A stretch of DNA of 64,000 bases from Branchiostoma floridae (lineage: Eukaryota > Chordata > Leptocardii > Amphioxiformes > Branchiostomatidae): positions 11,347,736 through 11,411,735 of the forward strand of contig NC_049994.1 in the NCBI RefSeq assembly GCF_000003815.2, written 5' to 3'. Each line of letters starts with the position of its first letter. Position 1 is the stretch's first letter. The notes beneath the pieces were generated by a model. That model was not told the DNA's origin, made no database searches, and saw only the letters and a program-made list of their open reading frames with translations. This document shows, one piece after another, positions 464 through 59,320 of the stretch. The position numbers and the translations under genes were made by a program.

Positions 464-526
464 GCATTTAGCCCCAACAGGGCATGAATTTACAATAACT
501 TAATTGTCATTCTATCTTTTCCCTAG

Positions 527-18536: not shown

Positions 18537-18852
18537 TCACATCAAGAAGGCAATGGGTATCAGAATCATTCCACTGACATACAGAACAAAGCAGATCCTA
18601 TCAAGTACATAGGTGAGCATCATCCATTCACTCCGTTTGTCTGGCTCCTCTTTTATCATGTCCTTGAGGAGTAAGATGCTTGTGGTCAGTGCATCGACTG
18701 TCTTCGACATTTTCTTAGCAATACCTTGCACTGTAGAGGACTTTCTCTCGTTGTCCAACAGGTCGTCTGCTTCGAGGTCGCTTTCGATGGAGGGGTTTTC
18801 GTACATGACGTTGGCCTTCTCCTCTAGTTTTCCAGTATCAGTCTCAGACTCC
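18537..18852 (-). CDS. Last exon: M3-M4 loop, MA helix and M4
   Basis: It encodes a short intracellular loop, an amphipathic helix before M4 ([20 protein letters not shown], equivalent to the nicotinic MA helix), the [10 protein letters not shown] stretch that resembles the W-x-x-VAxVIDR pre-M4 motif, and M4 ([19 protein letters not shown]). The protein ends within a few residues of M4, as in nicotinic subunits. Stop TGA at 18537-18539. Confidence 0.92.
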
Positions 18853-21800
18853 CTAGAAAAACGAATTTTGACAAACTTGTAAATGTAAATGTGTAGGGAC
18901 TATGTATAGATAAAATGGCATAGTGTCTTTCTTTTAGTTCCAAACTAAAGGGTACAAATTCTTTTGAATTCCGAACATCTTTTTTTAGCCCATGTGTTAA
19001 CCATATCGCCCTTACGATTGCGTCCCTGTTATCATCAAGAGCTTTCGCTCAAATATTTTGATAGCCAGAACGTCGCCGAATTTCAAACTTGCTCGAGAAT
19101 TTAGCGCATTGAAATGTTGTTGTCTGTTTTTGGACTGCTTTGTACGCTTTTAGGGTATACATTAAAGAATCATTACATGTAGTAAGAAGACCAGCAAACA
19201 CATTAATACATAAAGCCTACTACCAGGATTCCCAAAAACCAGGACCACGGGGTAGACCCCCGAAGCGCTGGAAGGATCAAATTGCAAAGGAAATTGGACT
19301 GAGTCTCAAGTGTGCGGAAACAAGTGCTAAGGAAAGTGCTGCCCGGAGAGCACTGACGGAGAGAAGCAAGGAGCCAGTCCCTGTCCTAAGCACTTAGGCA
19401 GGCAGGTAGGCAGGCAGGCGTACATTTGTTGATTGTATTTGAATAAACAGATAAAAAAGAAAGAAACCCTTACTTGGTGAGATCTCCAAGTAGAAGAAGG
19501 CGGGAACATCCCCGTAGGAAGAAACTCTTCATCCAGGTGGGCATGTCCTCCTCTCTCGTGTGAAGGTTGATGAGGACCGTTGTGACCAGCATGAAGAAAC
19601 CCATCAACACGATCGCCACAATGTTCAAAATACCTGTTTGGACGGTTCAAACAACAACATGAATTAAGATGTGGCGTAAGTGTGAACGGTTGGCTTGAGG
19701 TTGTCCTTCCCCACATACTAACATGAATTAAGATAGTTAAGATTTAAACATTATTTCTGTACACAGAAACAAAAGATCTGACCAATAAGCTCCTCTGGCC
19801 CTTCTCAAATTGAAATGACCCGAGGCGTCGCTCACGTGACATGAACGGAAGTGTGACGTCAGCAATGAGTCAAAGGTGCCCGCCAATCAAACGACCCGGA
19901 TTGAGAGGAATTCGTGAAAAACGTTGTTGTTGGTTTTGAAATCATTGACTATCTACACAGAAACATTTATTCGATTATTTATACATTCTATCACATCGTC
20001 ATCTTAAGTATGGTAAGAGATGTAATATCTTTTCATGTGAAACTATCTTCAAAATAAAGTACAGTCACTGTGGCTTTCATCAACAAATACATAATAGAAA
20101 TATAAAATAAATCTTAAAATTCTACTTACTAAGCAATATAGGCTAACTGAATCTCTAACATATCTATAGAATCAATTGGGGACAACGTGTCATTGTCATT
20201 GTAATTGATATAAAAATGCATTTATTTACCGAAGAATGGGATCTCTCTGGACCTCGGTAAGAAGTCTGAGATGACCAGTAAGGTGACGAACATGGAGAGG
20301 AGTATCGCCATGCCGAAGGACAGTCTGTCACCATTGTCAATGGGGATGAAGAAGATGATACAAAACAGCAGAGAGAGGAGAACCCCTGGTGCCACAGTCG
20401 TACACATGTGCTGGACGGGACTTCTCTCAAGGTAGAGGTCGAGACAACCCTGTAGAGAGAGAAAGTAACAAGAATCACTTTGATAACCAAGCACCAAGTG
20501 CACTTTTAGGTAAATATGTAGTCCCATAGTCTTTTGAGGCCGTTGGTGCAGAGGGTTGTTATCTAATATGTGTAGGGTAAGGTATCGGGAGGCGGAGCCA
20601 ATCCCTTTCCTCCACTCTTAAGGCCAGCCCTTTAACGCTGGTTCACCTTTATCCGAGGGTGACCTATGTCCGTTGTTTGTAAAAAAAAAGCGTATTTAGG
20701 TAATGCAGTCGATGGACGGTGGTTTAAAATCGGAACAATTTTAAAATATTGCAAATTTAAAATCACAGTCCGCAGACTTGATACCCCTAAATGTGCTGTT
20801 TTTAAAGACAACGGATAAAGGTCACCCCACGGATAAAGGTGAACTAGCGTTATAATGTTACATGTATTTACAGACTTAGCTTTTAGACTAGAGAAAACAC
20901 ATTCTATACTGTTCTACACATTTGTTTGTCTGTCCCCTTTCATGTTACCTGCAATTAGCCCTCCTAATGAACTATTAAGAATATTATAATAGACACGGCT
21001 AATTGGGCGACTTTGGCTTCTTGTAATGTCAGCCGAACGAATAGATAAATAACTGAGTCTCTAACAGAGAGAACTACCTTATCGCTGTCCACCGCCATGC
21101 TGTATGTTGCATACCACTCTCCTGCTACTGACGGCAACACGCTCTCACAGTCCAGGACGTCGAATTGTTTCTTCAGGTGCCGTGTTGGACACTGGAGCAC
21201 CTCGCCAGACGTGTTCCGCACGTGCAGGCACACCGGGCACGTCATGTTGTCGAACGGGAAGAGAAAGTGGTTCAAGTTGCATTGTGTCTCTAGCAGCGTT
21301 TCTGAAAAAGAAAAGAAAAGGAATTCTAAAAACACATTTTGCTATAGTACATAGCCACAACGTGACATCTTGTTTACGTCAAAGACATATGTTGTATATT
21401 AGTTTGCAAAATGTTACAAAATGTCAGAGACGTAAGTTGATTTTATATGTCAACAAACACATGTACACGTAAGCGAGAGAGCAAGCGCGCGAGCTATAGC
21501 ATTTTGCGTCACTGATGTAATATAGCAAGTAAAGTCTATATACTAACCAAAGGCCCAGATGATCTCTCCATCATGATTGACAGTCACGTCTACCTCTGGG
21601 AGTCCAGCAAAGCCTTTATCTGCGCTGTACAACATCATGTAAATCACATGTATTTCATACATATATCATATATATATCATATGTACGTTATCATCATGTG
21701 CAGTAAATTACGTATACATTACATGTAGTATATCATGTTAACAACGTATGTATGACTTTCTATTTGAAGAGCATCATGTAAACACGTGCACATCATTTGT

Positions 21801-24800
21801 AGAACATCATGTAAATCACATCTAAAACACGAGCCTAGCATCGTAACCACGTGTATATGAATATCCATTGGTGAGAAAATCTATGGTGTGCAAAACCATT
21901 GGTCTTACCTTGTACAGCCTTACTACTTCCATGAATCTAGCTCTAAAAGTATTTAACCCAATGCCCAATAATCTCATACCTTGTTAGATATTCTATAACA
22001 ACACAGAACATGAAAGGCAAAGATTTTACCTTCCTGCCAGTGACATATGTGGTGTCCAGACTTTAACGTGGTTCAAAGTGATAGTCGACAGATCATCGTA
22101 TGAGGACGGAGTCCATGATAATCTGGGGTCATACCAGTGCTGTAATAGAAAATACATTATCAATAGTTTAGAGAAAAAACATATATTGGGTTTGGTAAAT
22201 TTTTCCTTCAAGTAATTGTTAAGAATACTTTATTTAACGCCGATTATAAAACGATGTAAAGTCTGACATTAATTCAGCCTAGCCTCTGGGCTGCCATTGT
22301 TGGAGTATGTTTTGTAAAATAAACAATTCATCAACGTTCTTTAGTTTGGTCATAATATGATGTACCATCATGAATTAACTTAATGCTGAAACGTACACAT
22401 GTGGATAATGGCACAGAAACACTCACCAGTTCAATACTGACGTCAGTTAGTATGGAGGGGACCGATTCATCCTGCAAGGGGGTCGAACATGAGTCATTTG
22501 GTGACCTTGACATTCATACAATAGCGTACCTTCTAAGATGGTGAAGACGTGTTGACGTGAAGACATGTGCATTTTGAACTGTTTCGTTTAAAGTCGAAGA
22601 TGGTTAGACATCCAGGTGATAAGATATGCCAAAAATCAGTCACTAGAATAGAAAATTGAGTAACATCAGGGTCATTTCACATGATACTAATGTTAAACGA
22701 AACACGCCCCAAACAGATACTCAAGCAACTGGATATGAATTTGGAAAATGTCAGAGTTTGAACATGAAACATGACCGTTTCCAATATCATATCCAGTTGC
22801 TTGAGTAACTGTTTTGGGCGTGTTTCGTTTAGTACTAGTATCATGTGAAATGATGCAGTATCCTGATGTCACTCAATTCTCATTCCCTCTAATCAATTTG
22901 CCAGTCCGTTTGCGAAACGTAAAACAAGATGATAATCCTAACCAGGCTGATGACGGCGTTGATAGTTCCAGCTATGGTGATGTACACGCCATTGTCGGTA
23001 GGGGGCAGGTCAGCACTGTAAACAGACCTGTTGAACTTGTCCAGCAGCAGCTGAGTACGTTTGTCCTCTGAAACGCCAGGGAAGAGGAAGTCAACCAGCA
23101 TCAGTCAGTCAAGAAGTTCAAACACTTTGCAGTAAATCTTATGATGATATAAAGAAGCCATATGTACCCTATTTTGAAGTCTATGCAGTCAGGAAGGTTG
23201 AAGGAATGACAAAACACAGATTACGGTTGCAGAACGATAGATCTTCTTTCGTATTCTTTCACTTATCTCACTCATTGACTGTGTTGTGTCTATCCGAATC
23301 TGTACGCTTTTCGATATTTTCGTTGCAATTTACAGCATATATTTGCTACTTAAGCAGCTAACTTTGAAGTGTGAACTTCGGAAACGGGCGAATTAAAAAT
23401 CGATGCGCGCGCATCTAACCTTCTACAGACGATTTAGACTTGTACCTATACACTCTGGTAGGTCCACGTCCCAGGCTCCATCTGTGCACTTGGCCATGGA
23501 CTCCCCGCGCAGTGTGTACCCTGTCTCACACGTGTACGTCACAGTCTCTCCTGGCCAGTACCGGGGTCGTATGGGGTTTACACGAACACTTCTGGAGCGT
23601 ACCCGGTCACTGCAGAAAATGACTAGAAAACACAGATAGTATATTTGAAAGGATGATTTTGGATTGCCATGATTCAGAAACGTTTTTCAGTGTTTTGCAG
23701 CCATAGCAACTTAATTCTCATTTTGCAACAGATCGTGAAATGACGTGGAAATGGTAATCACATTATTTGAACCACATGACCACCACCATGTGTCTATATG
23801 TGGGTGTGGGAGTGTGTTGGGAGGGGGGTGCACTATTATTACCTTCGCGTGGAAGGTTATGTTTTCGGTTTAATATGGCATGCTGTTGTGTTTCAATATG
23901 TAGGTCAACAGCATATACTGTAACTCGAGTTATCCGTTGCGAAAAGGAAGGTCAAGTTCGAAAACAGTTGGCGTTGCCGCACCTGCCACCCACTGCCCGC
24001 CACCCCACTGCCCGCCACCCCACTGCCCGCCACCCCACTGCCCGCCACCCCAAGCGACTTTAAAAGGGAATAACTCAAGAAGGGGTTCACGGATTGTTAT
24101 GATTTTTTGTATGTAGATAGCTTAAATGATGCTTCATATAATGACATATTAATTATGCAAATTAGTATCTAATTTGAATAATTAATTATGCAAATTAGTA
24201 TCTAATTTGCATAATTAATTATGACATTTTGTAAACACGCTCAGTTCCATTATGGGACTATTGCAACATGTGACATTTGTAACTGAGAAGGAGAAGAATA
24301 TTTATTTTTGGTAAGGATATGTATTATGCATAATAAAGACCTAATTTTCATAATGAATGAGAAAATGCTATAATTTCATTTTGGTAAAGGAACTTCTTAC
24401 TTGTTGCATTAGGAAGTTATGTACAGGTGAACATCGTTGAACATTAATTATGCAAATGAGATCATAATTTGCATAAATTATTAGAAAATGCGATAAAAGC
24501 CTTCTTTCTTAACATAGACTGTGCACTTCTGTTGTTTGGTGGAGGAGATGATCAACTGATATAAGTTATACAAATGAGAACCTTATTTGCATAATTAATG
24601 ACAAACACACTGAATACAGCAGTTGTAGAGAAAGGTTAGGATCATTTGGCGAAGGTATGGGGTCGTGGATCTCTAGTTTATTTGTGTGTAGAAGACCAGC
24701 ATATATAACTCAAGAACGCCTGAATGGATTGTATTGATATTTGGTAGTAAAGGTTGAAATCATTTTGCGAAGGTATGGGGTCGAGGAACTCTTTGACTAG

Positions 24801-27800
24801 TTGGTTATCGCATTATAGTTGGACTATTTATTTGTTACTGTGTGATGACATGTGTAAAAATTTGGTTGATTTTGTATTATTAATAACTTGATTTCTTATG
24901 ATTGATTGCTTCTAAGGTTGAATGCCCCTTTAAAACTAATCATTTCTTCACCAACTTAACAAAATGCATCACAGTTGTTCATGTAAGTCTAAGGATTTCG
25001 CTCCACTCACCCCTATTTGTACACGGGATAAGGTCGCAGTACTCCCAGTTCCTGGCCTTGTCCGTATAGCACCATGGTCTCAGGGCACCGTCCGGGTTAC
25101 GGCAGTAGTTCTCTTCTAGATTCAGCCACTTGTACCTCTCCCCGGTATAAGCGCTTAGCTGCCAGTCCATGCACACTTTCTCTGATACTGTTGTGTTCTT
25201 CTTTCCTCTGTAGTTTCGGCCATTTCCATGGTAGCATTCTGGTAGGAGGGGGTGGCAATTTGAAATGTGTGAATCAAGGAGACATCCAGGTCATAAGATA
25301 ATCCAAAAATCAGTTACTCATCCGCTGTCTGTCAGTGACGAAAGATCGTGGATGCTATCAGAAACGTCTGACTGTTTCCAAAATCATGTCCATTTGCTTG
25401 AGTAACTGATTTTTGGTGCAAGTGTAACAAGAAAACTAGGAATTTAGGGAAACATGAATGCTTATTTTGAAACAGAATACAACAGAGGATGTAAAATACA
25501 ATTCCGTACCGTCGGAAACCCCTCCATAGACACAGTTGTCGTCTGGAAAGTCTTTACAGGGAGGAATGATCCTCAGCAGTTCTTCATCCACACAGGTTGC
25601 ACGGATCTCAGCGCACCACGATCGGCACGGATGGCGAACGCGTTGGTCGGAAGAACACTCCGGGAGAAGGTTGCAGCACGTGAACTCACGAATCTATAGA
25701 AAAAGGCGAGAGCACTTTGCCTCGATTTCTTCAAATGGTCGATCTGCACTTGTCATAGTACTAAATTTCTTTTTCAGAATTGAAACAAGTACACTGGCGT
25801 TGATGGCTATGTATTGGTTATGTTCTTTGGACAAAAACCTATAGGTTAAAGTTAACGTTGCCCGTGCATCTGTGACAGATGTTTAGGGGTGGCGCCCATC
25901 ACCATTTCTTTAGCCCTTTGGCCACACATTCGTGCAAGCCACTACAGTAGGGGGCTAATCCGCTGGTATGGAGTGATGCGTGTTTAACTCCCATATTCTT
26001 CCTCATTGGTGCTGAGTGCTAAGCAGAGAAAGTAGCATGTACCATTTTTAATGTCATTGGTATGACTCGGCAAAGGATCGAACTCACGACCTACTAGATG
26101 GTAGGTAATGGAGAAAAAGACAACATTCTAACGTTACGTGTATATATGCTACATTCTTATCTGCCATGATGTCTATATCTTGTCTGTATTGCAAAGATTG
26201 CGGTGCAAAGATGTCGGTATCTTGGTGAATGACTTTGCTCTACTTCACCTTGCATGGGCAACGACTTTGCTTCAATGGCTTCCGTTGTCAAGTTCAAATT
26301 GGCGTTCTATCATAGGCAAATGATGTGACCCGAAACAGTAAAAATCTCCCGCTTGTGGCTCACCTGTGGATGACAGGAACTTCCTGTGAGTTCGCTCGCG
26401 TCGGCCAGGTTTTCAGCCTCCTCTAGTTCCGTAGCGTTTCGATGCTGTAGAAAGTTTGGGAACGCCGTCCTGAATGAGCGCGGGCAAACTCTCCTCTCGT
26501 CCAACACTGATGGTATCGCTTCACAAGCTGAAACATCACGTGGCTTACTTTTAGTTGCTGTGTTTTAACTGGTCTGTTTATTGACACCAACGTATATCAT
26601 GTTAATACGATTATGAAGGTTAGATATCCAGGTAAACAATATTCAAATACAATTCTACTCTCCACAAATCAGTGGATATCACTCGAAACGTCCGGAATCT
26701 CTTATTTTGTCCAGTTGCTGTAATGATTGAATGGTATTTCAACACTTATGTTTCTGTTTATGTTTGCGTTTATGTCTACAAAGAAACGCCACTAGTCAAA
26801 CACATGATTGTATACTAATCGTTCTTATACACATACCAAATATAATTTAAAACGTGATGATGTTGATAATGAATTACAATACAATGTGAAACGTCAATGC
26901 TCAATTACTTACGACATTTTAGAAATATTTCTATGATTCATCAGTTTTCTTCTAACGGATGACAGAACTGTAGACAGTGGTTTATGATATTCTTTTCAAG
27001 GTATCTTATAGAAGATTTGATAAAGCATTACGGTATGTGGTAGAGTAACTACTGTGATAATTATTAAGTAAGGCCCATACCACAGTCTTCCTCGTCACTT
27101 CGGTCCCAGCAGTCAATATTCCCATCACATTTCTGGTACAGCCAGATGCACTTCGCCTTGTCACCGCATGGCCACGCTGCTGTGTCACAGGCCACAGACT
27201 CTACAGTTGAAGAAAAAGTCTGTGATTTGTCACAAAACACCAATCTACTGTGCTCTACTAATTATCCAAGTACTGTTTTGGATGAAATTTTGTAACATCA
27301 TTGTTATGAGTGAAATTCAATGTTTACGCGAAAGCATATGGGAGAAACGTCTGTTGATTTCATGGTAGACGCAACTACATCACTTGGACCTTCTGAGAAT
27401 AGAATGCTTGGAGCAAAACATCAATTTGTTGTCCCTATGTAAAGTATGTGCATACTTGTACACAACGGAGCTGTAGAGAGTTGTTATACCGTATGGCAAA
27501 GTAGTGGAACGCTCACCTCTTGGTATTGTTGAGAAAGTCGCGTTAAAATCAGTGATCAAAAGTTCTCCGAATCCTTCGCTTGTGAATAGAGCCGTTAGCT
27601 TATAACTTTCAGTTATGATGGACACGGGCTGGTCATGTCCGCAGTATTTACCTGAATGGAACAAAAATAAATTTGATAAGTGGTGATTCTATGCCGGTTT
27701 ACAGTTTAAACTACAGTTTAAAGGCTCCTAAAACATTTAAAAAATAGAGAAATACGCCTGAAATGGAATTAATGATGGTCTAGACGAGAACTATCTATAG

Positions 27801-30800: not shown

Positions 30801-33800
30801 CCATCTCTACGGTGGCAAAGGTGTTGTCTACCCGCTTAGTTTATTAGCTCATATAAGGAAATTTTTGCAAGGCCGGTTGGAAAGATAAGGTGTCACATAT
30901 TAAAGACCGTTTTCTAACAAGACATTTTCTAAGCCAGCCTGTTACAAATGGTGACCATACAGGCCAGGTATTTGCCATCCTCTCGCTATTGAATGATAAC
31001 GTCATATGAAATTACCGAAGGTAATGCAAATATCGACATCAAAGGACATTTACCGCATCCTCTTTCGTCACTTCCATCAAAGCAGTTTTCCAGTCCGTCA
31101 CAGCGGCTCTTAAAGGGTAAACATCCGGACCAGTCTGCGCAGCGGAATCTTTGATGTTCTTTCCACAACGCGAAATCCCCTTCCAGACAGGGGTCTCCTT
31201 TTCAGGAAAAGAAAAAAATGCATTTATAGAGGGACAATGAAAATATGTATATATCACATTGATAGCAACATCAGATTAACACCAACAACGACTGACTCAA
31301 GAATAGCATTAACAAATGGACAGTGAAAATATATCACAGTGATAGCAACAGCAGATAAACAACGTTAACAACAACAACAACTGTGATACCAGGACGCATC
31401 TGACCTCTGACCCTCAAGGACAGTTCAATGACCTTAATGATTTTATGACCTTCAGTTATCATTGATAAAAATTTGCTATTCTTTTTAGTTTTCCAAAGTT
31501 GTTTGATTTGTTGATCCAAAATAGATGTTTATGACTTATACTTTTGCGAACGTTTCATTCATTCAATCCTATGTTAGTAATTACTAGTATTTTTCTGTAT
31601 CTTGATTGGTTATGATTTTGTTAGGGCTGCCTTGTAAATAAGTTACCAAGGTATCTGAAGTGATCGCGACAAATGAAAGATTCACAAATAAATGCAGAAC
31701 TACAACAAGAAATTACATACCTTTGTACGTGGCGACGAAGGTGGCGTTAAATCCGGATGACGTGATCCATGCGTCAGTGTGAAAAACTACCGTCACTATG
31801 TTCAGCTTGGACGTAATTCGATCCTTCGGATACGTACCTTGGGCAGAAGTACTACCACAAAACTTTCCTCCTCCTATGACACATGAAATATAGATAAATA
31901 CACCTTAGCACAGATAACATATAGACGATTCATCAAACCCTAATTTAATTTCCCCTACAAAGTATCAAATAAAACCGGCCCATGTGCGTCACTTTTTCAT
32001 GAGTTCAGGCTTCGATAAAAATTGCCATTGCATATTTAGAATACGAGATATCAAAACTGGGAGTCCCTCTGTAGTACCATAAAAGGCCAGTAAGGGTCCC
32101 GAAATCTAACTATTCCATCCATGAACCTATAGTCTCCTGATAGAATTATAAGCTATTTTGCAGTCTTCAATACGCATGTGCGGGCGACAGGGATTATGGG
32201 TAATATGTCAAAGGTAAAGGCCCCATGAACATAAACATTGAGCCATTTTGCAGGTGCCATTACGTTCCAGACATTGTTACTCAAATCGAAACAATGGTCG
32301 ACACGACACACGTCTGATGGGCCGTCACCTTTGACATATTACCCAGGATTTCTGTTGCCAACATATGCGTAGTGAAACATCCAAAATGTTTTAATATCAT
32401 GAAATTTATTAGATTCAATGTTAAACACATACTAGTACCTAGAACACGATTGCTTCTGGGACTTCCCTCATACAACAGGACATAGTCATAGTCACAGTCT
32501 TGTTGAAATTCAAGATCGAAATTGTCGAATGTCACGGTTATGGACATGGAGGCGTTCACGACGATGGTCCAGTTGCACCAAAGGTTGCTGTCATAGCTTT
32601 CTGGATAGTTCGGTGAACTAAAAGTCCCCTCGTCTCCAGTTAGGGTGGAGCCACATGACGAAGTACCTGAGACTACGACAAAAGATAATAATGTCAATCA
32701 CTCATGTAGTAGCCCTGACAGTGTTACACAATCTTTCGCTGGCTGGGATAATGACTGGGGCGGCGGCAATATAGAACAGACCGCTAGGAGCGCGATTTTA
32801 GTCAAGCNNNNNNNNNNNNNNNNNNNNNNNNNNNNNNNNNNNNNNNNNNNNNNNNNNNNNNNNNNNNNNNNNNNNNNNNNNNNNNNNNNNNNNNNNNNNN
32901 NNNNNNNCGTTTATGAAGGTTAGACATCCAGATACACAATATTCAAATGTCTAGTTAGATGTACATGTATTGACTTATTCTGCCAGTTCATTCTAGTGAT
33001 GCTGAAGAAGAGTGATGGATGTCACTCGAAACGTACGGAACTAAATCTCCATTTTTATCCAGCTGTAGAGATTGAATTGTATTTGAATACAAATGCCTGT
33101 ATTTCATGACTTTAAAATATATCTTAAAAATGGGACCTGAAATATCTAAACTTGGAAATTGTAATAGGCGGAGGTATATACAGAATATAGTTAAGAATCA
33201 TACTGTATATATGACGTCGACGATCATGTCCCGATCATGTCTCACGAAAACATACATACAAAATCTAAAGACAAAACGGCTACATTATAGTTTGGATTGC
33301 CTGGATGTAGTGGTAATGCATTGTGGAAAAGACTTACGTATACTCCAACTTCTCTCCAATTCATGCATGTCCCTCCTGTAACCGTTCTATTCCGGCTGCC
33401 TCTGTAGTTCTCTCCCCAGCCGTTGAAGCAATCTAAAACATGGTAAAATGTAAGGGGAAAATCATGTTAAAGTTAAGTTCGCGGTAGTGCCATACACTGT
33501 AATCACATACTGTAATGGAAAGTTTTCGCGGTGTTTTTGAATTTGCGGTAAGACTGCTTCGCGAAAACCGCGAACATAAAACCACCGCGAACATTTCTGC
33601 ATTGGAAAGAACACTATTGCCTTTTTCTTGCTAGCTCTAGCAAAGAATTCTATGCACCTTCTTTCTGCTGTGGGTAGTAACAGTCCGTCCATGGCAGAGG
33701 GTTGACGTAATAGAAATCGCTGACAAACCAGCAGTCCCACATGACTTCCCGCCACCAGGAATAGCACATCGGGATCATCCTGGACACGAAGGATACATCA

Positions 33801-34349
33801 ATCTCTTCATGATAGACGAAGTCACTTACCACAATTACGTACAGCAGTATGTACAGCATATGCATAGAAAAAGATCTGGATTATTTCACGTAGGCGTGAG
33901 ATCTTTGAACTCATGTCAACAATTACAAAGACTACCTGTTTCTGCTACACTTCGGAGCCAGAAGCGCACAGTGAAAAGTGACGACTTCAGGATGGGAGCA
34001 GACATCTTGGTTTCTCCAAGAAAGACGTCCTTGGCTTCTCCAGACGTCTTGTGCGGTTGTGAAGACACGGGAAGTGACAATCTCTGAGGAGTTCGTGTGT
34101 CCTACAAGGTTCGGCATAGACATCTTAGAGTAGGAGATGTGTCCTTTGCAAAATCCTAGTTCCTCTGGTATCGTATGGCACTCTAGTGAGGGAAATAAGA
34201 AGCGATGAAATGTTAAAAAACGGCAATGCGTAAAAAGCAAGGTAGGTATGAAGTACTGGGTTTGTATGTTTACCTCCATGAAAAATGGAAATATTGTATC
34301 TGATATGCGTGTGTGTGTGTGTCTATACTCCCCCTCTCTCTATTTATGC

Positions 34350-34389
<40 letters not shown>

Positions 34390-34397
34390 GCGTGTGC

Positions 34398-34440
<43 letters not shown>

Positions 34441-37400
34441 GATGGATTCTGTATCTTTTGTCCTGTCATGGTTTTGTCTTGTCTATTCACGACAAGAGAA
34501 AATCTCCTGTTAATAATAAATGACTTTGAAATCTGTTACAAAACTTACCACAATGCTCTTCGTCACTGCCATCGAAGCAATCTTCCCGCCCGTTACAACG
34601 TTTCACGAAAGGTAAACATTTTGACCAATCATCACAGCGAAACCGTTGCCATGGTTGCCACAGACGGAATTCACCAAGGGAACAGGGATCAACTGGTGAT
34701 AAAAACACAAACATATTTGCTTTTAGTACCATTGAAGCTAAAAATCAGTTGCAGAGACCGCATAAACACTACAGGTTTGGATAACGATATCAAGAATTCG
34801 TTAGCAACAATTACCGACTATTTCGAAATGATGTCAAGATGCGTCAAGAATTTTAACCATCTTATTCTATCCCAGTAAAGTAACCAAATAAAATGGTATG
34901 TCGATGAAGGTTAGGCATACAGGTAACAAGATACGCCAAATAGCAATTACTCATTGACAAGCAACTTTTTGGAAACGGCAAGCTAATTAACTCATTTGTT
35001 TTGTATTGGACTACTAAATAAGTTTCTTCATCTTTTTTTGCATATCAATTCAAAGTTAGCATATTATGGAACCTACTCTCCAACAAGATCTCTCTAGTAT
35101 CACTAACGAAAGATAACGGATGTTATCTGAAACGTCTGACCGTTCCAAAAATTATATCCAGTTGTTTGAATGTGTAATTGCTATTTGGCGCAGAAAATAG
35201 TATCTCCTTTTAATAACACAGAAAACAATTGCAACTTCCCCTACCTTTGTCAACGGCGACGAATGTAGCCTTGAATCCAGTAAATGTCAGCCAAGCGTCA
35301 CTTTGGAACTGCACTTTGACGATGTTGAGCCCAGAAGTGATACGTTTGTCTGGGTAGTTGGCGTCTGTTTTCGCACTTCCGCAAAACTTTCCTTTTCCTG
35401 TTGTCGTTACCATAAACAGATTAGCAAAAAATGCATTTGATGATTCAGTAAGACTATGATACATCATAGCCGGCTATAATTGAGATAAGTGCCCATTTGT
35501 AATATATAGCATGAAATGAGTTTGTTATTGATTTGTTGGTGACCGCAGGGAAGAACCCCTGCTTGACTGCCTGTGCCTACGCTGCAAGTAGAATTCATGT
35601 GAGACAAATTGACAATACAGAAACCAAAGAATAAACAGACTCTTTTTACTTTATTCTAAACTATTGCTTTATTTCCACCGACGTTATGGTGATCGTATTT
35701 TACCTTTCTGAAGGGCAAATCTGACTGGTTCACATTGCACTGCAGCGATAATTGTGAATTACGTTTTGTGACCGCATCTGTAGCAGCGCCACCTGTCGCT
35801 GCAGTACAATGTGAACCAGTCAAAATTGCTTTGAGGAAGGTGACAGAAAACGTCGATGGAAATAAAACAATGGTTGTATAAACTCAGTGACGTACTTGTT
35901 TGTAGCAACCTGGTAAAACTGTTCACGGAATGCAGAAACCAGATAAACAGGGAAAGCAAGTCTCGGAAGTCTCGGACATAGTCTAGTGATCTTGCGAGAC
36001 TAGATCATTCCGTGATCAAGATGTATTGCGCAGACATCGGAAATTTGGAGTTGCGTATTTTACGTGTTTTCAAGAGCCACTGATCGAAGAAGTACTATAA
36101 TAATTAACAGAGAAATATCTTTATCACTCGTATTGTAATAGTTACCCACCTAACTGTCGATTGTATTTCGAATTTCCCTCGTAGACCTGAACGAAGTCAT
36201 AATCACACTGTGGGTGTGCTTCCACGTCAAACCAGTCGAATCCGAGAACTATAGACTTGGACCTGTTGACCCGAATGGTCCATTCACAGAACAGGTTGTT
36301 GTCGTATTTCTCTGGGAAATTTGGTGACGTGAAATCTCCTGCCTCGCCAGATAACGTGGAGCCACATGATGCCTCCGAGGCTGGAGAAGTAACATTATAC
36401 ACAACAATTTGATGAAGGTTAGACATCCAGGTAACAAGACACGCCAAAAGTAGTTATTAAAGCCGCTGGGTATGGTTTTGGAAGTGATTATACGTTTCGG
36501 ATAGAATCCAGTATCTTTCGTCAGTGACAAGTTGCAATGCTGTTATCTTGTACTTCCTACATACCCCGAATGTCAATGGTATTTGTTTGCTGGAAAGGTT
36601 TAAATGTATGTTTAAATGCCTTAAATAATCATCATATCGTTCCGTGCCAGTACTGCAGCCAGGCCACGGCCTTCTCGTTAGCTTCTAGAAGGTCCGTGCA
36701 ATGCCTTAACCCTATTCAGACCGGGCTTTTTTGGTCATCCCTGGACCGGGGGGGGGGGAGCTTTTGAGGCCCTCCACTTCTAAGTCGTATAACTCTAAAA
36801 CGACGTGCCGTAGGGCCACCAAATTTTTAGGACATAATTTCGACATAATATCTGACAAGTATGTGACGTTTGACGTTACGTTGACGTAAAATGACGTAAT
36901 TATGATGTCATCAATTTGATTACATTGGCCAAACCCATGAAAAGTGGGCATTCTCAGAAAACTTCAATTTATGCTACAAAAATGTAACAACAAGTGCAGA
37001 TAACAGAATAATAATGTTTATTACGACTTGTGTTGCCAATAGCAACATCAATGACGTCAATATGACGTCATAAAATGACGTCATGCACATCTAAGATACG
37101 AGTTGGGCTCCGCCATATTATATCCACCACCTTGAATTTTTATATTTCAGCCATACATAGTATGGTGAAATATATTGTATTCGTAATGTTTCTTTCTTTC
37201 TTTCTTTCTTTCTTTCTCCTGTCAAATCTTCAAAGTGATTCATCTCCGCCATTCCTGGACCGAATGACCTGAAATTTGGCACAGGGGTAGAATGGGCCAA
37301 TACCTTGATGCTTTTTTCTCAGTTTTTTCATATCTACCTCTAAAATGATTTTATTGAGATTTTTTGGTCAATTTTAGACCAAAACTGTATATTTTGGCCC

Positions 37401-40400: not shown

Positions 40401-41364
40401 GCGTGGGAAGGGGTATGGCTGAAATATGCTGTATTTGCTCTTAAGCAAATGTCGGCCTTTCTAGTTAAAAATACTTTTTTTGCAACAAATAATCACAAAG
40501 GGCAATGGAAATAGACTAAATTCATTCATTTAGATGGTTTTTGATGAAAAAATACCAGGTAGTTACAAATTTTAAGGGAAAATTAGCTTGTTATTATTGA
40601 TTTGGCCATTTGGTCCGCCATCTTGGATTTTGGGCTGATGACGTCATCAAATTAGCATAATTTATGCATATGTAATTATGAAAGATACGTTAAATAATAT
40701 AACATTTTATTTATGTAACAAAATCGCAGTAATATAGCAAATAAATGTGAAAAATACATAGTTACAACCAAAAATAGTGATTTTTGGCAAAACTGCCTGT
40801 CAACAAACGGTTGCCATGGCAACAAGAAATAAGGGAAAATTTGTCAAACTTCGTAAAGTTGTTGCCAACAATATTTTAGGAAAACTCACCAAATTTGGTG
40901 GCTCTAGCGTAAGCCGTTCTGGCGTTATAGGACATCGAAGTTAGCGCGGGCCTCAAAAGCCCCCCCCCCCCGGTCTGAATAGGGTTAAATGACTTAAACT
41001 GGAATAATCTAAGGTAAACAAGGACCACTCATTCATTGCTTGAAAGCTAAGAGGATCTGTAAATTTGTAGATTTTTTGGCACTGTACACCACGCATAACA
41101 GTCTAAAGTCCAAGGACGTATATTCAATTTTCTTCGTAATTTCAACTCTCTTGGTGAGCCCCGTGCAATTATAAAGACTACAATCTTTTGGTCTGAAAAT
41201 AATCTAATACTATCCCATTAAACTCCTAAAAAAACAACCTGTATATATACAGTATAATTATATAGAAGTGGCTAAGATTTGCACTTACCATATATCCAAG
41301 CTCCTGTCAGGTACAGTAAAATACCAAGAAATGTCAGCGTCCGGTACGGAAATGTCCGCCACAT
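18537..41364 (-). CDS. Mosaic Cys-loop ligand-gated ion channel: 3x(CUB-LDLa-Frizzled-Kringle)-Sushi-pLGIC
   Basis: The visible coding exons are 41364-41289, 36380-36150, 35397-35245, 34692-34549, 34182-33936, 33779-33658, 33432-33338, 32666-32439, 31873-31721, 31197-31054, 30702-30480, 30126-30005, 29830-29736, 29272-29131, 28768-28662, 28231-28096, 27651-27517, 27200-27081, 26527-26364, 25693-25510, 25238-25011, 23622-23446, 23067-22943, 22471-22427, 22139-22030, 21624-21548, 21301-21078, 20449-20230, 19633-19474 and 18852-18537. Every junction has GT/AG borders and matching phase except 33338 to 32666, where one half-kringle exon (phase 0 to 1) is missing and the N-gap lies. They sum to 4,703 nt. 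Adding 142 nt, the length of the paralogous exon, gives 1,614 residues. Approximate order: signal peptide 1-25, cassette 1 26-403, cassette 2 404-772, cassette 3 773-1130, Sushi 1131-1189, ligand-binding domain 1190-1383, M1-M4 to the end. It is predicted to be a plasma-membrane, probably cation-selective, channel subunit with a giant adhesive N-terminus. No named orthologue is recognised. Confidence 0.88.
19190..19420 (+). mobile_element. Non-LTR retrotransposon (LINE) 3'-end fragment
   Basis: The plus strand encodes [13 protein letters not shown] followed by an Ala/Arg-rich stretch and a stop. This GRP-x-x-RW motif is typical of the C-terminus of LINE ORF2-type proteins. It ends in GGCAGGCAGG repeats. 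It lies antisense in the intron between the M3 and M4 exons, and the rest of the element is absent. Confidence 0.7.
19474..19633 (-). CDS. Exon: M3 and start of the intracellular loop
   Basis: Phase 1 entry and phase 2 exit. It encodes M3 ([20 protein letters not shown]) followed by [20 protein letters not shown]. The N-x-H-x-R and MPxWxxxxFL motifs are those found right after M3 in nicotinic receptor subunits. Confidence 0.93.
19780..19915 (-). mobile_element. Partial SINE copy
   Basis: It shares AATGACCC, GAAGTGTGACGTCAGCAA and CAAAGGTGC blocks, in order, with the SINE at 15280-15545. The tRNA-like head is not preserved. It lies in an intron of the channel gene. Confidence 0.5.
20230..20449 (-). 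CDS. Exon: M1 and pore-lining M2
   Basis: It encodes the pre-M1 [12 protein letters not shown]1 ([17 protein letters not shown]), the short M1-M2 link DNGDRLS and M2 ([19 protein letters not shown]), then [13 protein letters not shown]. Against nicotinic receptors, position -1' is Asp (usually Glu), 0' Arg, 2' Ser, 9' Leu and 20' Asp. There is no inserted Pro at -2' as in anion channels, so cation selectivity is predicted. The M2-M3 link matches the P-x-S-x-x-x-P-x-x-G pattern. Phase 0 entry, phase 1 exit. Confidence 0.95.
20630..20855. mobile_element. MITE, family 'TTCACCTTTATCC' (well preserved copy)
   Basis: The left end AACGCTGGTTCACCTTTATC and the right end GATAAAGGTGAACTAGCGTT are inverted complements. 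Inner blocks GTGACC...GTCCGTTG and CAACGGATAAAGGTCACC also pair. Related to the diverged copy at 249-463. Confidence 0.8.
21078..21301 (-). CDS. Exon: ligand-binding domain with the Cys loop
   Basis: The Cys loop reads [15 protein letters not shown]: two cysteines separated by exactly 13 residues with the FPFD apex, the hallmark of eukaryotic pentameric ligand-gated channels. Downstream are [11 protein letters not shown] at the loop B position and [10 protein letters not shown] near loop C. Loop B lacks the nicotinic Trp, and no vicinal Cys-Cys pair is present in loop C. Four further cysteines occur. Phase 1 entry, phase 0 exit. Confidence 0.93.
21548..23067 (-). CDS. Four exons: N-terminal part of the ligand-binding domain
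   Basis: Exons are 23067-22943, 22471-22427, 22139-22030 and 21624-21548. In order they give an N-terminal helix-like segment ([18 protein letters not shown]), strands [15 protein letters not shown] and [10 protein letters not shown], the conserved [11 protein letters not shown] (family consensus W-x-D-x-R-L-x-W-x-P), [10 protein letters not shown] (VWxPD position) and HDGEIIWAF (G-x-x-x-W strand before the Cys loop). The tiny 45-nt exon is phase 0-0. The Trp of nicotinic loop D is replaced by Ser (DVSIEL). The 21624 acceptor was chosen because the nearer AG at 21620 would create a stop. Confidence 0.88.
22597..22853. mobile_element. Hairpin element copy with extended terminal inverted repeats
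   Basis: It opens with the family start GGTTAGACATCCAGGTGATA. TCATTTCACATGATACTA with AAACGAAACACGCCCC pairs with GGGCGTGTTTCGTTTAGTAC and ATCATGTGAAATGA. Inside are GATACTCAAGCAACTGGATA and ATATCCAGTTGCTTGAGTAA. Intronic. Confidence 0.75.
23446..23622 (-). CDS. Exon: Sushi (CCP) domain joined to the channel
   Basis: Phase 1-1 exon. It contains the four Sushi cysteines ([25 protein letters not shown]), [15 protein letters not shown] and the conserved Trp in [10 protein letters not shown]. The acceptor at 23623 was preferred over an AG nearer the donor because only the former includes the first Cys and keeps phase. The exon splices directly into the ligand-binding domain (LPECIE|DKRTQ). Confidence 0.92.
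23990..24050. repeat. 15-bp minisatellite, about four copies
   Basis: The unit CCCACTGCCCGCCAC is repeated in perfect or near-perfect tandem in the intron between the Sushi and Kringle 3 exons. Confidence 0.9.
24060..24900. repeat. AT-rich repeated intronic sequence
   Basis: Several copies of ATTATGCAAATTAGTATC with a palindromic TTGCATAATTAATTATG occur at 24140-24230, with looser copies to 24600. Two direct repeats follow with AAGGTATGGGGTCG at about 24652 and 24770. This looks like a decayed transposon; no coding was seen. Confidence 0.6.
25011..25238 (-). CDS. Exon: Kringle 3 (complete in one exon)
   Basis: Phase 1-1, 228 nt. It contains six cysteines in kringle order ([36 protein letters not shown]), GNGRNYRG at the start and the [13 protein letters not shown] core. 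Cassettes 1 and 2 split the kringle over two exons, but this one is uninterrupted. Confidence 0.95.
25270..25425. mobile_element. Hairpin element copy
   Basis: It shares GACATCCAGGTCATAAGATA, AAAAATCAGTTACTCA, GACGAAAGATC, AAACGTCTGACTGTTTCC and TTGCTTGAGTAACTGATTTT with the other copies of the CAAGCAACTGGATATG family. Confidence 0.7.
25510..26527 (-). CDS. Two exons: Frizzled cysteine-rich domain 3
   Basis: Exons 26527-26364 and 25693-25510 (phase 1/0/1). The first gives [12 protein letters not shown] and a PNFLQH motif. The second gives [30 protein letters not shown] and [11 protein letters not shown], matching the FZ pattern C-x-x-F-x-C-x-x-x-x-P-x-C and PCR-x-x-C. The intron lies after CHPQ, a position different from FZ1 and FZ2. 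Confidence 0.87.
25860..26110 (-). mobile_element. Possible tRNA-related SINE
   Basis: On the minus strand GGTCGTGAGTTCGATCC resembles a tRNA B box, followed by a non-coding body. No clear A box was found. Confidence 0.35.
26613..26745. mobile_element. Repeat element, 'GGTTAGATATCCAG' family B
   Basis: It shares GAAGGTTAGAYATCCAG, ACAATATTCAAAT, TCACTCGAAACGT and GATTGAATGGTATTT-like blocks with a copy at 32909-33090. It is related at its start to the hairpin family but has a different interior. Confidence 0.6.
27081..27200 (-). CDS. Exon: LDL receptor class A domain 3
   Basis: One phase 1-1 exon of 120 nt. It contains six cysteines ([28 protein letters not shown]) and the calcium-cage signature [16 protein letters not shown]. 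It joins directly to FZ3 (EDCACEAIP). Confidence 0.95.
27517..28768 (-). CDS. Three exons: CUB domain 3 (divergent)
   Basis: Exons 28768-28662, 28231-28096 and 27651-27517. [18 protein letters not shown] and RKCRWTIS form the first Cys pair. [16 protein letters not shown] follows, then [11 protein letters not shown] (the C-x-Y-D-x-V-x-V-x-D/G motif) and GKYCGHDQP with DFNATFSTI. The SPNYPxxY motif present in CUB1 and CUB2 is lost. An extra phase 0 intron after WTIS distinguishes it from the two-exon CUB1 and CUB2. Confidence 0.82.
28826..28925. mobile_element. Small MITE with ACACGTAAAATA ends
   Basis: GAACACGTAAAATACCTCCA at the left pairs with ACTTATTTTACGTGTT at the right. The interior GGTCATTCCATGATCAAG is shared with the copy at 35985-36075. 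Confidence 0.7.
29131..29830 (-). CDS. Two exons: Kringle 2 (first Cys replaced by Ser)
   Basis: Exons 29830-29736 and 29272-29131 (phase 1/0/1). The first encodes [11 protein letters not shown] and EVCLDWKEI, the second [17 protein letters not shown] and SLCGVPACG. The residue equivalent to kringle Cys1 is Ser (DSYNG against DCFNG in Kringle 1), so the outer Cys1-Cys6 bond cannot form and the last Cys is unpaired. Confidence 0.88.
30005..30702 (-). CDS. Two exons: Frizzled cysteine-rich domain 2
   Basis: Exons 30702-30480 and 30126-30005 (phase 1/2/1). [43 protein letters not shown], then [17 protein letters not shown] and [11 protein letters not shown]. This matches the FZ layout: CxxIP, C-x-x-Y-x-x-x-x-x-PN, FxCxxxxPxC, P-C-x-x-x-C. 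The second exon has the same length (122 nt) as its FZ1 counterpart, with about 32 of 41 residues identical by eye. Confidence 0.93.
31054..31197 (-). CDS. Exon: LDL receptor class A domain 2
   Basis: 144 nt, phase 1-1, the same length as LDLa1. Six cysteines occur, with the calcium motif [16 protein letters not shown]. It has a long first loop ([17 protein letters not shown]). Confidence 0.95.
31721..32666 (-). CDS. Two exons: CUB domain 2
   Basis: Exons 32666-32439 and 31873-31721. [39 protein letters not shown], then [23 protein letters not shown] and GFNATF. All four CUB cysteines are present. Phase 1 throughout. Confidence 0.95.
32808..32907. other. Assembly gap (100 N) where half of Kringle 1 should be
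   Basis: 100 N of unknown true size between the Kringle 1 first-half exon (33338-33432) and CUB2 (starts 32666). The remaining sequence on both sides lacks a YCRNP...WCY-type exon. Confidence 0.97.
32909..33090. mobile_element. Repeat element family B, second copy
   Basis: It begins at the gap edge with GAAGGTTAGACATCCAG and contains ACAATATTCAAATGTCT, GATGTCACTCGAAACGTACG and GATTGAATTGTATTTGAAT, collinear with 26613-26745. Such repeats probably hindered assembly here. Confidence 0.6.
33338..33432 (-). CDS. Exon: first half of Kringle 1
   Basis: 95 nt, phase 1 entry and phase 0 exit, identical in length to the paralogous Kringle 2 exon. It encodes [17 protein letters not shown] and [13 protein letters not shown], holding Cys1 and Cys2. 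The donor is GTAAGT. Its partner exon is missing from the assembly. Confidence 0.92.
33475..33600. repeat. CGCGGT-rich repeat
   Basis: Several inverted or direct TTCGCGGT and CCGCGAA blocks (TTTTCGCGGTG, GCGAAAACCGCGAACATAAA, CCACCGCGAACATTTC) form a palindromic non-coding element in an intron. Confidence 0.55.
33658..34182 (-). CDS. Two exons: Frizzled cysteine-rich domain 1
   Basis: Exons 34182-33936 and 33779-33658 (phase 1/2/1). [42 protein letters not shown], then [17 protein letters not shown] and [11 protein letters not shown]. It has about eight more residues than FZ2 before CSHPE. Confidence 0.93.
34300..34441. repeat. GT/GC microsatellite
   Basis: Long GTGTGT runs with an internal CGCGCG block. 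Spurious Cys-Val reading frames arise from it. It lies in the intron between LDLa1 and FZ1. Confidence 0.95.
34549..34692 (-). CDS. Exon: LDL receptor class A domain 1
   Basis: 144 nt, phase 1-1. [21 protein letters not shown] and the [16 protein letters not shown] signature. Ca2+-binding acidic residues are all present. Confidence 0.95.
34902..35190. mobile_element. Hairpin element copy with internal insertion
   Basis: It begins GATGAAGGTTAGGCATACAG and contains CAATTACTCATTGACAAG, CACTAACGAAAGATAACGG, GAAACGTCTGACCGTTCC and ATATCCAGTTGTTTGA near the end. It is longer than its relatives because of AT-rich intervening sequence. Confidence 0.65.
35245..36380 (-). CDS. Two exons: CUB domain 1
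   Basis: Exons 36380-36150 and 35397-35245. [39 protein letters not shown], then [20 protein letters not shown] and GFKATF. It is phase 1 at every border. The phase 1 entry matches the signal-peptide exon at 41289-41364. Confidence 0.95.
35723..35820. mobile_element. 98-bp MITE with 25-bp terminal inverted repeats
   Basis: ACTGGTTCACATTGCACTGC and GCAGTACAATGTGAACCAGT are inverted complements with one mismatch. The inner CGATAATTG... region is unpaired. Intronic within CUB1. Confidence 0.85.
35985..36075. mobile_element. Small MITE, second copy of the ACACGTAAAATA family
   Basis: It shares CTAGATCATTCCGTGATCAA, CAGACATCGGAAATTTGGAG and TATTTTACGTGTTTTCAAGA with 28826-28925; the left terminal repeat is degraded. 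Confidence 0.6.
36410..36540. mobile_element. Hairpin element copy (partial)
   Basis: GATGAAGGTTAGACATCCAG at the left, and TACGTTTCGGATAGAATCC and CTTTCGTCAGTGACAA at the right, match the hairpin family in both orientation blocks. It starts 30 bases upstream of the CUB1 exon. Confidence 0.65.
37240..37960. repeat. About 162-bp tandem repeats inside the Helentron-like element
   Basis: The block CTGTACCCTGGTATTACAAC recurs at intervals of 162-164 bases (about 37397, 37559, 37723, 37885), with a diverged first unit near 37250. Preceded by a (TTTC)n microsatellite at 37190-37217. The open reading frames seen are repeat artefacts. Confidence 0.9.
37900..39180. repeat. About 600-bp diverged tandem duplication inside the Helentron-like element
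   Basis: Blocks CAATCAGCGAAGAGGA, GGCTAAT(T)GATATTCATAAGC, GCATTTTAGACTATT, ATAATCGCAGCAGTCACTTA and TTCGCTGCGC occur twice in order, at about 38115-38450 and 38740-39200. The matching copy at 47-50 kb has the same internal duplication. Confidence 0.8.
41289..41364 (-). CDS. First coding exon (signal peptide) of the mosaic channel
   Basis: ATG at 41364-41362, 25 codons plus one base, then the donor G|GTAAGT. The peptide begins MWRTFPYR and has the hydrophobic core [17 protein letters not shown], a good signal peptide. Its phase 1 exit fits the phase 1 entry of the CUB1 exon 4.9 kb away, giving IYASEASCG. A splice-acceptor-like TTCTATAG at about 41388 suggests a 5' UTR intron further upstream. 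The assignment rests on phase, signal-peptide character and the absence of a better candidate. Confidence 0.72.
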
Positions 41365-57467: not shown

Positions 57468-57469
57468 AG

Positions 57470-59320
57470 CATGGAACGGTCACTCAAAAGGAGTCAAACA
57501 ACAGTTCTGACTGTCTGGGACGTCTTTTCGAAGAGTTTGGGAGTCGCTTCGCTTCCTGATAGTTGGACGTTCCCCACAGCGATTTCGAGAAGTCACTGAG
57601 AGCAAAGGTCACAGACGATGACCTTTGAACTCTGAGACATAAAGTCTCTAAATTACAGTTGGTCCGTCGAAAATACGTTGTCATGATGACATGGTTACAA
57701 AACATCGCCATTTTTATCCCCGGTATAATTCAATCGTTATTTTTTCGGCGCTTTGCGACACAGAACAAAATGGCATCGAATACGACCAGCACGTCTTGCC
57801 CGCTGGCGGTACAAGCGGGAACTGCAGTCGATTAATATTAGTCAGAATATAGAACAGGGTTCCTACAGGATACTTATGGAGTTGTCAAGAACATGTACAT
57901 CATGTAGAGAGTTTACCAGACAAAAAGACACGTCGGTCGTCGTGAAGCGAGTCACATCATGCCTTCTTTGCCTATTAGTAAGCTAGAGCACATTCTTTCA
58001 ATCTTTTACAGTGAAGTGTCATATGCCTGGCAAAAACAACAGCTTCCAATTAATGATCCTCGCCTTAATAATATACGATGTAGAAACGTAAGTTAATCCT
58101 AACAATGCAACCAATCATGTGCACGTGTTGCAAGATTTTCCACCTTAAATCGTCTTGATAGATTTTCATAATTCCAAAGTTCTCGATTGTAGATTTTTTA
58201 TTAATCATGATAATCACTTTCTTTTCTTGTTTTCACCAACAAAACGACACACGAGAATAAAATCTTCATCTTTCATACAAATGTGCAAAAATTATATTCT
58301 ATGATATGATACCGAATCCCAGCAAGCTTATCATCGACATAGTACACCAATGCTAGACTTATATTAAACTCTCTCTATGAAATCTCTTCAGAATATAAGC
58401 TACAGGATTATAAAAAGCAACAATATTCACACACCTCCATTAACATTTAATGACGTTGACGATGATCATAAGCATCCATAGGTAAACATGATATTCTCTT
58501 CTGGACATTTATTGTTTATGAAGACATTTTGAAATGTATACGTCTTTGCTCGACCGGGTAAAAGTGACCTCGCAACTGAAGATACTCTTTCACTAGTCAT
58601 TATAACAGGGAAATTCCCCTAGTTTTTTCGTCAACTTCAATGAACAATGGATCGCGGCTTAACGTCCCGTTCTGAGCATTGCAACCCTTTCCAGTAGCGT
58701 CTTGACGTCTTTACAAAATCTTCACATACTTCACTCAGTGTTAGATATAAATGTAAGTTAATTTACACAGGACCCGCGTGAAGCGTCGTCCTTACATTAA
58801 CCCGTAACGTTGGGTAAAAGTATCACCAAGTATAGCGTTCGTAGTATTCGCCATATGGTATATCCTTTGTCATCATCAAAATACCAGATGCATAGTTCGG
58901 TGTGATATGTTCTATAGGAGCAGTACTTACGCAAGGTGTTCTAATGTCAGCGACTCTACGTATACGTGGGTCTACGTATACGTCGCGTATATAAATGCAT
59001 TTCAAATGCTATATAAATATATTTATATGTCGCAATTGTTACATGTATATACTAATCGGCAATCCATTGCAGTTTCTTTTCCGTTCAATCGATTTCCAAT
59101 GCAGCACTAAAATATATCGTTACTGCAAAATTCCAAATTTCAAGCTTAAAAACGATGTGGATGGGGTGTCTTGACTAACTGGAAGAAGAAAAGACAGTTA
59201 AGCTGTTAGCGAGATAACGATCGTTTGAAAATTCATTGGCTTAATCTGTAGATTACGATTACAAATGGCTATCTGTCTTGTGGCTTGTCAGACCGTTTGG
59301 GTGATTGCAATACTACGCAC
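57470..59320. other. Intergenic region upstream of the TRIM gene, nothing recognised
   Basis: AT-rich sequence without convincing exons. A TACGTATACG-rich palindromic stretch occurs at 58960-58990. The TRIM gene promoter would be at its left end. Confidence 0.45.

Follow-up and report, generated by a model that had tools for sequence, protein, structure and literature searches.

An amphioxus Cys-loop channel gene with CUB, LDLa, Frizzled, Kringle and Sushi modules belongs to an expanded family whose transmitter pocket looks dismantled

Metazoan Cys-loop receptors are usually regarded as compact transmitter sensors. In cephalopods, the chemotactile receptors are expanded, nicotinic-derived channels that have lost acetylcholine recognition; they carry no added modules, and small or greasy molecules are bound in a remodelled ligand-binding domain. 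Arrays of extracellular modules are found in other membrane proteins: Frizzled (Fz) adjoins Kringle in ROR and in some MuSK proteins, and MFRP carries CUB, LDLa and Fz. Unlike the subunit described here, the ROR and MuSK kinases and MFRP are without a channel.

CUB, LDLa and Sushi modules are known to act on ionotropic receptors in the LEV-10/LEV-9 and Neto systems, as described in the available part of PMC9083331. There, LEV-10 (five CUBs and one LDLa) and LEV-9 (eight CCP/Sushi) are both required, in trans, for clustering of a nicotinic-type receptor in C. elegans. These are separate polypeptides, whereas in our subunit the modules are fused to a complete channel. DeCLIC and other prokaryotic pLGICs do have, as our subunit does, an extra extracellular domain before the canonical channel domains; from the portion of PMC12664993 available, the DeCLIC N-terminal domain apparently accelerates gating, and its two lobes have been likened to calcium-binding domains. 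By description, the eukaryotic subunit would be set apart from this prokaryotic one: its modules are recognised by Pfam as CUB, LDLa, Fz, Kringle and Sushi. Searches of the open-access literature, judged by titles and abstract openings and with most subscription papers outside this scope, gave no description of modular Cys-loop receptors, and automatic database annotations of such genes may well exist. The words CUB, sushi and kringle are absent from the main text, as far as available, of the pLGIC survey PMC4795631; in that text, genome data are named as the sole evidence for added domains, and terminal parts outside the two channel domains were discarded, which may be part of the reason why such layouts have gone unnoticed. 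Expansions of nAChR genes in amphioxus have been reported in a study of vertebrate nAChRs (PMC6354393, available part).

The window analysed here is a 64,000-nucleotide stretch, C16:11347736-11411735, of the 513 Mb, 431-contig Branchiostoma floridae assembly, in which those of contigs C1-C19 with length shown are chromosome-sized (e.g., C1, 35.3 Mb; C19, 17.1 Mb). A first-pass annotation of this DNA had proposed a gene of thirty exons on one strand, all joined in phase. Rebuilding the gene from the DNA gave 30 exons at the same place, from the start codon at 41364 to the stop codon at 18537 on the minus strand, with GT..AG at 29/29 introns (Table 1). The gene is real. Its first exon has a phase 1 donor that matches the acceptor of the first half of CUB 1 over a 4908-base intron, and the open frame is kept at 28 of the 29 exon junctions; only at the junction from Kringle 1 to CUB 2 did the proposal of matching phases fail. 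The translation comprises 356 residues before and 1212 residues after a single break, with no stop inside.

Table 1. Features of the rebuilt channel gene, with positions counted from the first nucleotide of the window.
Feature	Position	Strand	Basis
Exon 1: start codon, putative signal peptide (hydrophobic core)	41289..41364	-	phase fit, hydropathy
CUB 1, first half	36150..36380	-	exon model, Pfam
CUB 1, second half	35245..35397	-	exon model, Pfam
LDLa 1	34549..34692	-	exon model, Pfam
Fz 1, first half	33936..34182	-	exon model, Pfam 32.4 bits, cut-off 32.1
Fz 1, second half	33658..33779	-	exon model, Pfam
Kringle 1, first half	33338..33432	-	ends phase 0; Pfam Kringle positions 1-27 of 79, under cut-off
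100-N assembly gap, probable place of absent Kringle 1 exon	32808..32907	.	
CUB 2, first half	32439..32672	-	exon model, Pfam; starts phase 1
CUB 2, second half	31721..31873	-	exon model, Pfam
LDLa 2	31054..31197	-	exon model, Pfam
Fz 2, first half	30480..30702	-	exon model, Pfam, genome Fz search
Fz 2, second half	30005..30126	-	exon model, Pfam
Kringle 2, first half, first Cys -> Ser	29736..29830	-	exon model
Kringle 2, second half	29131..29272	-	exon model, genome search
CUB 3, first part	28662..28768	-	exon model
CUB 3, second part	28096..28231	-	exon model
CUB 3, third part	27517..27651	-	exon model
LDLa 3	27081..27200	-	exon model, Pfam
Fz 3, first half	26364..26527	-	exon model, Pfam
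Fz 3, second half	25510..25693	-	exon model, Pfam
Kringle 3, whole, single exon	25011..25238	-	exon model, Pfam, genome Kringle search
Sushi; phase 1 donor one codon and one base past the last Cys	23446..23622	-	exon model, Pfam, paralogues
Ligand-binding domain exon 1 (N-terminal helix, first strand)	22943..23067	-	exon model, Pfam, paralogous loci
Ligand-binding domain exon 2, 45 bases	22427..22471	-	exon model
Ligand-binding domain exon 3 (loop A region)	22030..22139	-	exon model, alignment, paralogous loci
Ligand-binding domain exon 4	21548..21624	-	exon model, paralogous loci
Ligand-binding domain exon 5 (Cys loop C-x13-C; loop B region)	21078..21301	-	exon model, alignment
Pre-M1, M1, M2 (pore)	20230..20449	-	exon model, genome searches, alignment
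M3 + start of intracellular loop	19474..19633	-	exon model, paralogous loci
Intracellular loop, M4, stop codon	18537..18852	-	exon model, paralogous loci

At the off-phase junction, a phase 0 end of the first Kringle 1 half meets a CUB 2 exon that requires phase 1, and no second half of Kringle 1 was found between them; the 100-N assembly gap falls within this interval. When the genome was searched with the second-half exon of Kringle 2 (150 of 197 candidates scored), the exon recovered itself at 100% and the next best match had an E value of 3.9e-6 and 48% identity, so that among the candidates scored the absent half was not found elsewhere in the genome. Because the sister exon retrieves itself and then this distant match, the absent exon probably lies in the gap. 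The absence of half a Kringle, together with a missing cysteine in Kringle 2, where a serine replaces the first Kringle cysteine and sister sequences read DCFNGW or ECYHGNG, might indicate a decaying copy, that is, a pseudogene of the family. We rejected this very unlikely reading, because the 30 exons have no stop and GT-AG splice sites, and because an assembly gap lies where the missing half would be.

The domain content agrees with the layout that had been claimed: three CUB-LDLa-Fz-Kringle units, a Sushi domain and a full channel subunit. In the part of the protein before the break, Pfam recognised a CUB (92.7 bits), Ldl_recept_a, Fz and, of a Kringle, its first third; in the part after it, CUB (152.6 bits over two stretches), two LDLa, two Fz, two Kringles, Sushi, Neur_chan_LBD and Neur_chan_memb, and hydropathy gave four hydrophobic segments in the channel part. 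Fz 1 is barely over its cut-off, and the half Kringle 1 is under it (17.9 vs 34.3 bits). Units 1 and 2 have near-equal exon lengths (231/234, 153/153, 144/144, 247/223, 122/122 and 95/95 bases) and are probably a later duplication; unit 3 has a different exon build with a one-exon Kringle, and matches suggest that a one-exon Kringle beside Sushi also occurs on C4, C2, C19 and C230. CUBs 1 and 2 seem by eye to retain what we take to be the acidic residues of calcium-binding CUBs. A lectin domain was not found in the window gene, and the argument from lectins made below rests on its relatives. A PDB search with Fz 3 and Kringle 3 returned chiefly Kringle-bearing clotting and growth factors and did not indicate a clear parent gene; the ROR2 Kringle was among the matches (E 3.5e-10), but since plasminogen and HGF were the best Kringle matches, descent from ROR is not shown.

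Behind these modules, the channel part shares several features with nicotinic subunits. Both channel domains are above the Pfam cut-off (Neur_chan_LBD, E 1.7e-25; Neur_chan_memb, E 4.3e-18), the nearest PDB sequences are nicotinic subunits (best E 5.2e-32), the Cys loop has the form C-x13-C with FPFD, the hydrophobic segments correspond to M1-M4, and the 45-base exon sits where nicotinic receptor genes have a 45-base exon. M2 carries Asp at -1', Ser at 2', Leu at 9', Val at 13' and Asp at 20', in a numbering, and with a meaning for cation pores, that we assume here. By these features the subunit is a member of the Cys-loop superfamily, and its pore looks cation-type.

A gene read from DNA, with one off-phase junction beside a gap, could in principle be two adjacent genes, or a product of faulty assembly or of exons wrongly chained. 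An in-frame ATG does lie ~33 bases ahead of the first channel exon, where a separate channel gene might begin; however, the stretch that follows it is short, contains an Asp and makes a poor signal peptide by eye, and a start there would cross a good splice acceptor. Other loci of the same genome also bear on this point (100 kb read at C19, C6 and C230, and 16 kb at each of C4 and C2). At C19 and C230, CUB, LDLa, Fz, Kringle, Sushi, ligand-binding and membrane exons follow one another in that order. At C6 there are three copies, not all in the same orientation; their CUB, Fz, Kringle and ligand-binding exons keep the order, Sushi appears in two of the three at the threshold used, and LDLa was not detected. 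Exon identities to the window gene at C19, C6 and C230 range from 24 to 63%. Its closest relatives, on C4 and C2 (64% and 63% over M1-M2), have the layout LDLa-Fz-Kringle-Sushi-channel, with a second Fz-Kringle unit in front at C4; the 16 kb read at each of the two showed no CUB.

In the most numerous branch, read at C16, C17 and C18, LDLa is followed by an Fz-like region, Kringle, Sushi and channel; a C-type lectin lies farther out at the C16 and C17 loci, and the C16 and C18 loci have a long Ser/Thr-rich repeat open in several frames. Pfam Lectin_C recognises the two lectins read (E 7.7e-19 and 8.3e-22). Pfam fails to recognise the Fz-like region of this lectin-side branch, and an Fz function is therefore not necessarily shared by all members. 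At C5:4743573-4749092 (+), a C-type lectin, a family-type Kringle and Sushi stand in order, with no pore behind them among the matches listed; this would be a member that is truncated or soluble, or else a break in the assembly.

In all eight loci examined for the Sushi-end donor (the window and seven paralogues, C6 not included, with paralogue donors predicted from sequence), G|GT lies one codon and one base past the last Sushi cysteine, in phase 1; in the window, on C4 and on C16, the channel exon that follows also begins in this phase. The recurrence of module order, channel and donor codon in diverged loci on several chromosomes excludes, as far as genome data can, transcription units that divide between Sushi and channel, and the proposal of one gene is upheld; chance chaining of exons was likewise rejected, given that 28/29 phases fit and that the layout recurs elsewhere in the genome. 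Taken together, two genes or an artefact are extremely improbable. At the gene level, our models show a single gene for the window subunit and a large family with a shared Kringle-Sushi-channel core. Where loci were read, this core is usually preceded by exons for LDLa and for Fz or an Fz-like region, and the outer end bears either a C-type lectin or CUBs.

The size of this family was estimated from its pore exon. Searching the genome with the 74-aa translation of the M1-M2 exon gave 128 matches: 72 family, 46 classical and 10 second pieces of interrupted exons. With a lectin-side query, the 136 matches comprised 63 uninterrupted and 10 interrupted family exons, 53 classical exons and 10 second pieces. 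The window's own genome thus holds ~73 family pore loci (63 uninterrupted and 10 interrupted), under a split between family and classical that we made by identity and position; these are loci and not necessarily genes, because unplaced contigs may hold haplotype copies. Of the 63 exons, 42 share 82% identity or more with the C18 pore query and 16 share 63-71%; the remaining five, the window exon among them, are at 48-56%. A four-member cluster with two members per strand and an interrupted M1-M2 exon is located at C6:15.63-15.71 Mb.

The Kringle and Sushi queries were taken from C16 and C18, members of the lectin-side branch, and an upstream limit of 26 kb was chosen after the distances had been seen. 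Each search scored 150 candidates: of 639 for Sushi, 448 for Kringle, 157 for M1-M2, 1,040 for lectin and 230 for Fz. On the same strand and within this limit, a Kringle lies upstream of at least 60/63 uninterrupted family loci, and Sushi does likewise (at least 60/63); both are present at 58 or more, with the Kringle first in 58/58, and at the window locus, too, Kringle and then Sushi precede the pore exon on the same strand. For the 10 interrupted loci, Sushi was upstream in at least 7 and both modules in at least 2. Among the matches listed, neither module was upstream of any of the 53 classical pore loci. Conversely, 58 of the best 60 Kringle matches have a family pore downstream. Five of the 63 loci are without one or both matches (C16:2.35 Mb, C11:0.10 Mb, C4:3.96 Mb, C4:18.90 Mb and C2:13.25 Mb), and Sushi was found to be present at C4:3.96 and C2:13.25 once the locus itself was read. 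As controls, among the matches listed, Kringle was found downstream on the same strand at 7/63 loci and Sushi at 6/63, which may be explained by tandem clusters, and on the opposite strand within 13 kb Kringle was found at 2 loci and Sushi at 1. For Fz, again among the matches listed, a Pfam match lay within 15 kb upstream of at least 22/72 family loci vs 0/46 classical loci, with 2/72 downstream and none on the opposite strand. A lectin match lay upstream of at least 16/63 family loci.

We then considered selection, using members of the lectin-side branch on C16, C17 and C18. The dN/dS values were 0.14-0.19 for M1-M2 (three pairs), 0.12-0.37 for the ligand-binding exons (six comparisons), 0.13-0.52 for Kringle (three) and 0.22 for Sushi (one pair); 4 of the 13 dS values exceed 1 and are rough. 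Ectodomain and channel halves both look to be under purifying selection. A heavy ectodomain and a remodelled ligand-binding domain could also be those of a non-conducting adhesion or co-receptor protein, with the channel fold serving merely as a membrane anchor. The low dN/dS of the pore in all three pairs, the conservation of the pore exon (one query matches at least 42 loci with 82% identity or above) and the retention of Leu 9' and the acidic rings argue against such a protein, which we regard as improbable.

While the pore is conserved, the site at which acetylcholine would bind apparently is not. We compared four family rows (window, C2, C19 and C16, two of which were joined at approximate junctions) with six classical channels of the same genome. 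From the conserved Trp to the pre-M1 Arg, there are 20-21 residues in 4/4 family rows, 31 in three alpha-type channels with vicinal cysteines, and 25-27 in three non-alpha-type channels without them. The short loop C is no splicing artefact, because at C19 this stretch is a single uninterrupted exon. Vicinal cysteines (CC) are present in 0/4 family rows, and the SWT of loop B is found in 6/6 classical channels, both alpha- and non-alpha-type, and in 0/4 family rows. In alignment with a PDB alpha chain, Ala stands in place of the loop A Tyr and Ser in place of the loop D Trp; we take these two residues and the loop B Trp to form part of the aromatic box. Unlike the three alpha-type rows, which have none of them, the family has extra cysteines after the Cys loop, two in 4/4 rows and a third in 3/4, and one cysteine of the family rows aligns with the vicinal pair.

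With its short loop C, extra cysteines and no loop B tryptophan, the acetylcholine pocket looks dismantled. The window subunit differs from nicotinic subunits in its chain of modules, cut-back loop C and lack of an aromatic box and, as it also has no vicinal cysteines, on sequence falls outside the acetylcholine-binding (alpha-type) nicotinic class. The finding is thus confirmed and is larger than first noted: modular Cys-loop channels form an expanded family in which the transmitter pocket looks dismantled. The first-pass annotation, whose interpretation otherwise holds, had mentioned neither this pocket nor the ~73-locus family, the C-type lectin sister branch or the absent half-Kringle exon.

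The loss of the pocket would be equally compatible with a subunit that depends on a partner's pocket. In such an arrangement, the modules would cluster the channel at cell contacts in cis, making it a self-anchoring synaptic subunit that is accessory in a heteropentamer whose partner supplies the pocket. Modules of the CUB, LDLa, Fz, Kringle and Sushi kinds often serve only anchoring or clustering, and Fz-Kringle is also found in ROR and some MuSK proteins. Vertebrate non-alpha subunits retain the loop D Trp, however, and the window subunit has Ser there. The three non-alpha-type channels of the same genome, which like the family lack vicinal cysteines and have a shortened loop C, also retain the loop B SWT that is absent from the family rows. 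The module types are the same as those of LEV-10 and LEV-9 in the available part of PMC9083331, yet ~73 loci with varied outer modules, lectins among them, amount to more diversity than an anchor seems to need. We consider a self-anchoring subunit, the main rival reading, possible, though with the odds against it.

The reading that we prefer, to which we assign a probability of about 0.5, is of a cation channel, not a classical acetylcholine receptor, in which ligand recognition has moved to the ectodomain modules. We infer surface expression, a pentamer, a cation current and gating by the modules. The three CUB-LDLa-Fz-Kringle units would form a rod and the Sushi a stalk, atop the ligand-binding domain of a pentameric channel subunit; the figure of up to fifteen copies of each module per pore, given earlier, assumes a homopentamer. 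The outer modules would recognise the stimulus, either a soluble ligand or one displayed by an adjacent surface, of protein, lipoprotein, Wnt-like or glycan nature. Its binding would move the Sushi stalk and the ligand-binding domain so that the pore is opened or tuned. In effect, the system would join a constrained cation-channel effector to a shuffled recognition head. Both lectins read, those of the C16 and C17 relatives, carry EPN and WND, which are mannose-type lectin motifs. Given these lectins and the apparent calcium-type acidic residues of CUBs 1 and 2, calcium-dependent recognition of glycans or proteins by the modules is a reasonable first guess.

More tentatively, and with a likelihood well short of even, the ~73 loci may form an ionotropic recognition system, in which binding of macromolecules, glycans or microbial surfaces is turned directly into membrane current. 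If so, this would be a chemosensory or immune receptor class built on a conserved cation pore with an abandoned transmitter pocket, and to our knowledge no receptor class of this kind is known elsewhere. Provided that the pocket is lost, the welding of Wnt-receptor, complement, clotting and lectin modules to a channel would mean that the superfamily can be rewired for large ligands. The family also offers natural chimeras for asking how binding to an added head opens a pentameric pore.

Several minor observations concern related domains elsewhere in the genome and other frames in the window. About thirty partial matches to the ligand-binding domain profile (positions ~45-120) were observed at C5:24.4-24.7 Mb, C7:22.7-23.0 Mb and C9:6.1-6.8 Mb, and also on C4, C12, C13 and C14; by eye, no M1-M2 is nearby among the matches listed, and they may be soluble binding proteins or an expanded family of their own. 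Half-Fz matches cluster densely at C3:2.02-2.07 Mb, C4:10.19-10.23 Mb and C290, with no nearby family pore by eye among the matches listed, and are perhaps another expanded Fz-bearing family. Within the window, and likewise by eye, an open frame at 44213-44869 (-) has collagen-like Gly-X-Y repeats and then an apparent C1q/TNF-like head. TRIM-like RING, B-box and NHL-like frames lie at 53194-57479 (-), with a reverse transcriptase-like stretch in frame past the RING, which by eye is a retroelement inside or beside a TRIM gene. Finally, an open frame at 499-987 (+) resembles, by eye, an immunoglobulin domain.
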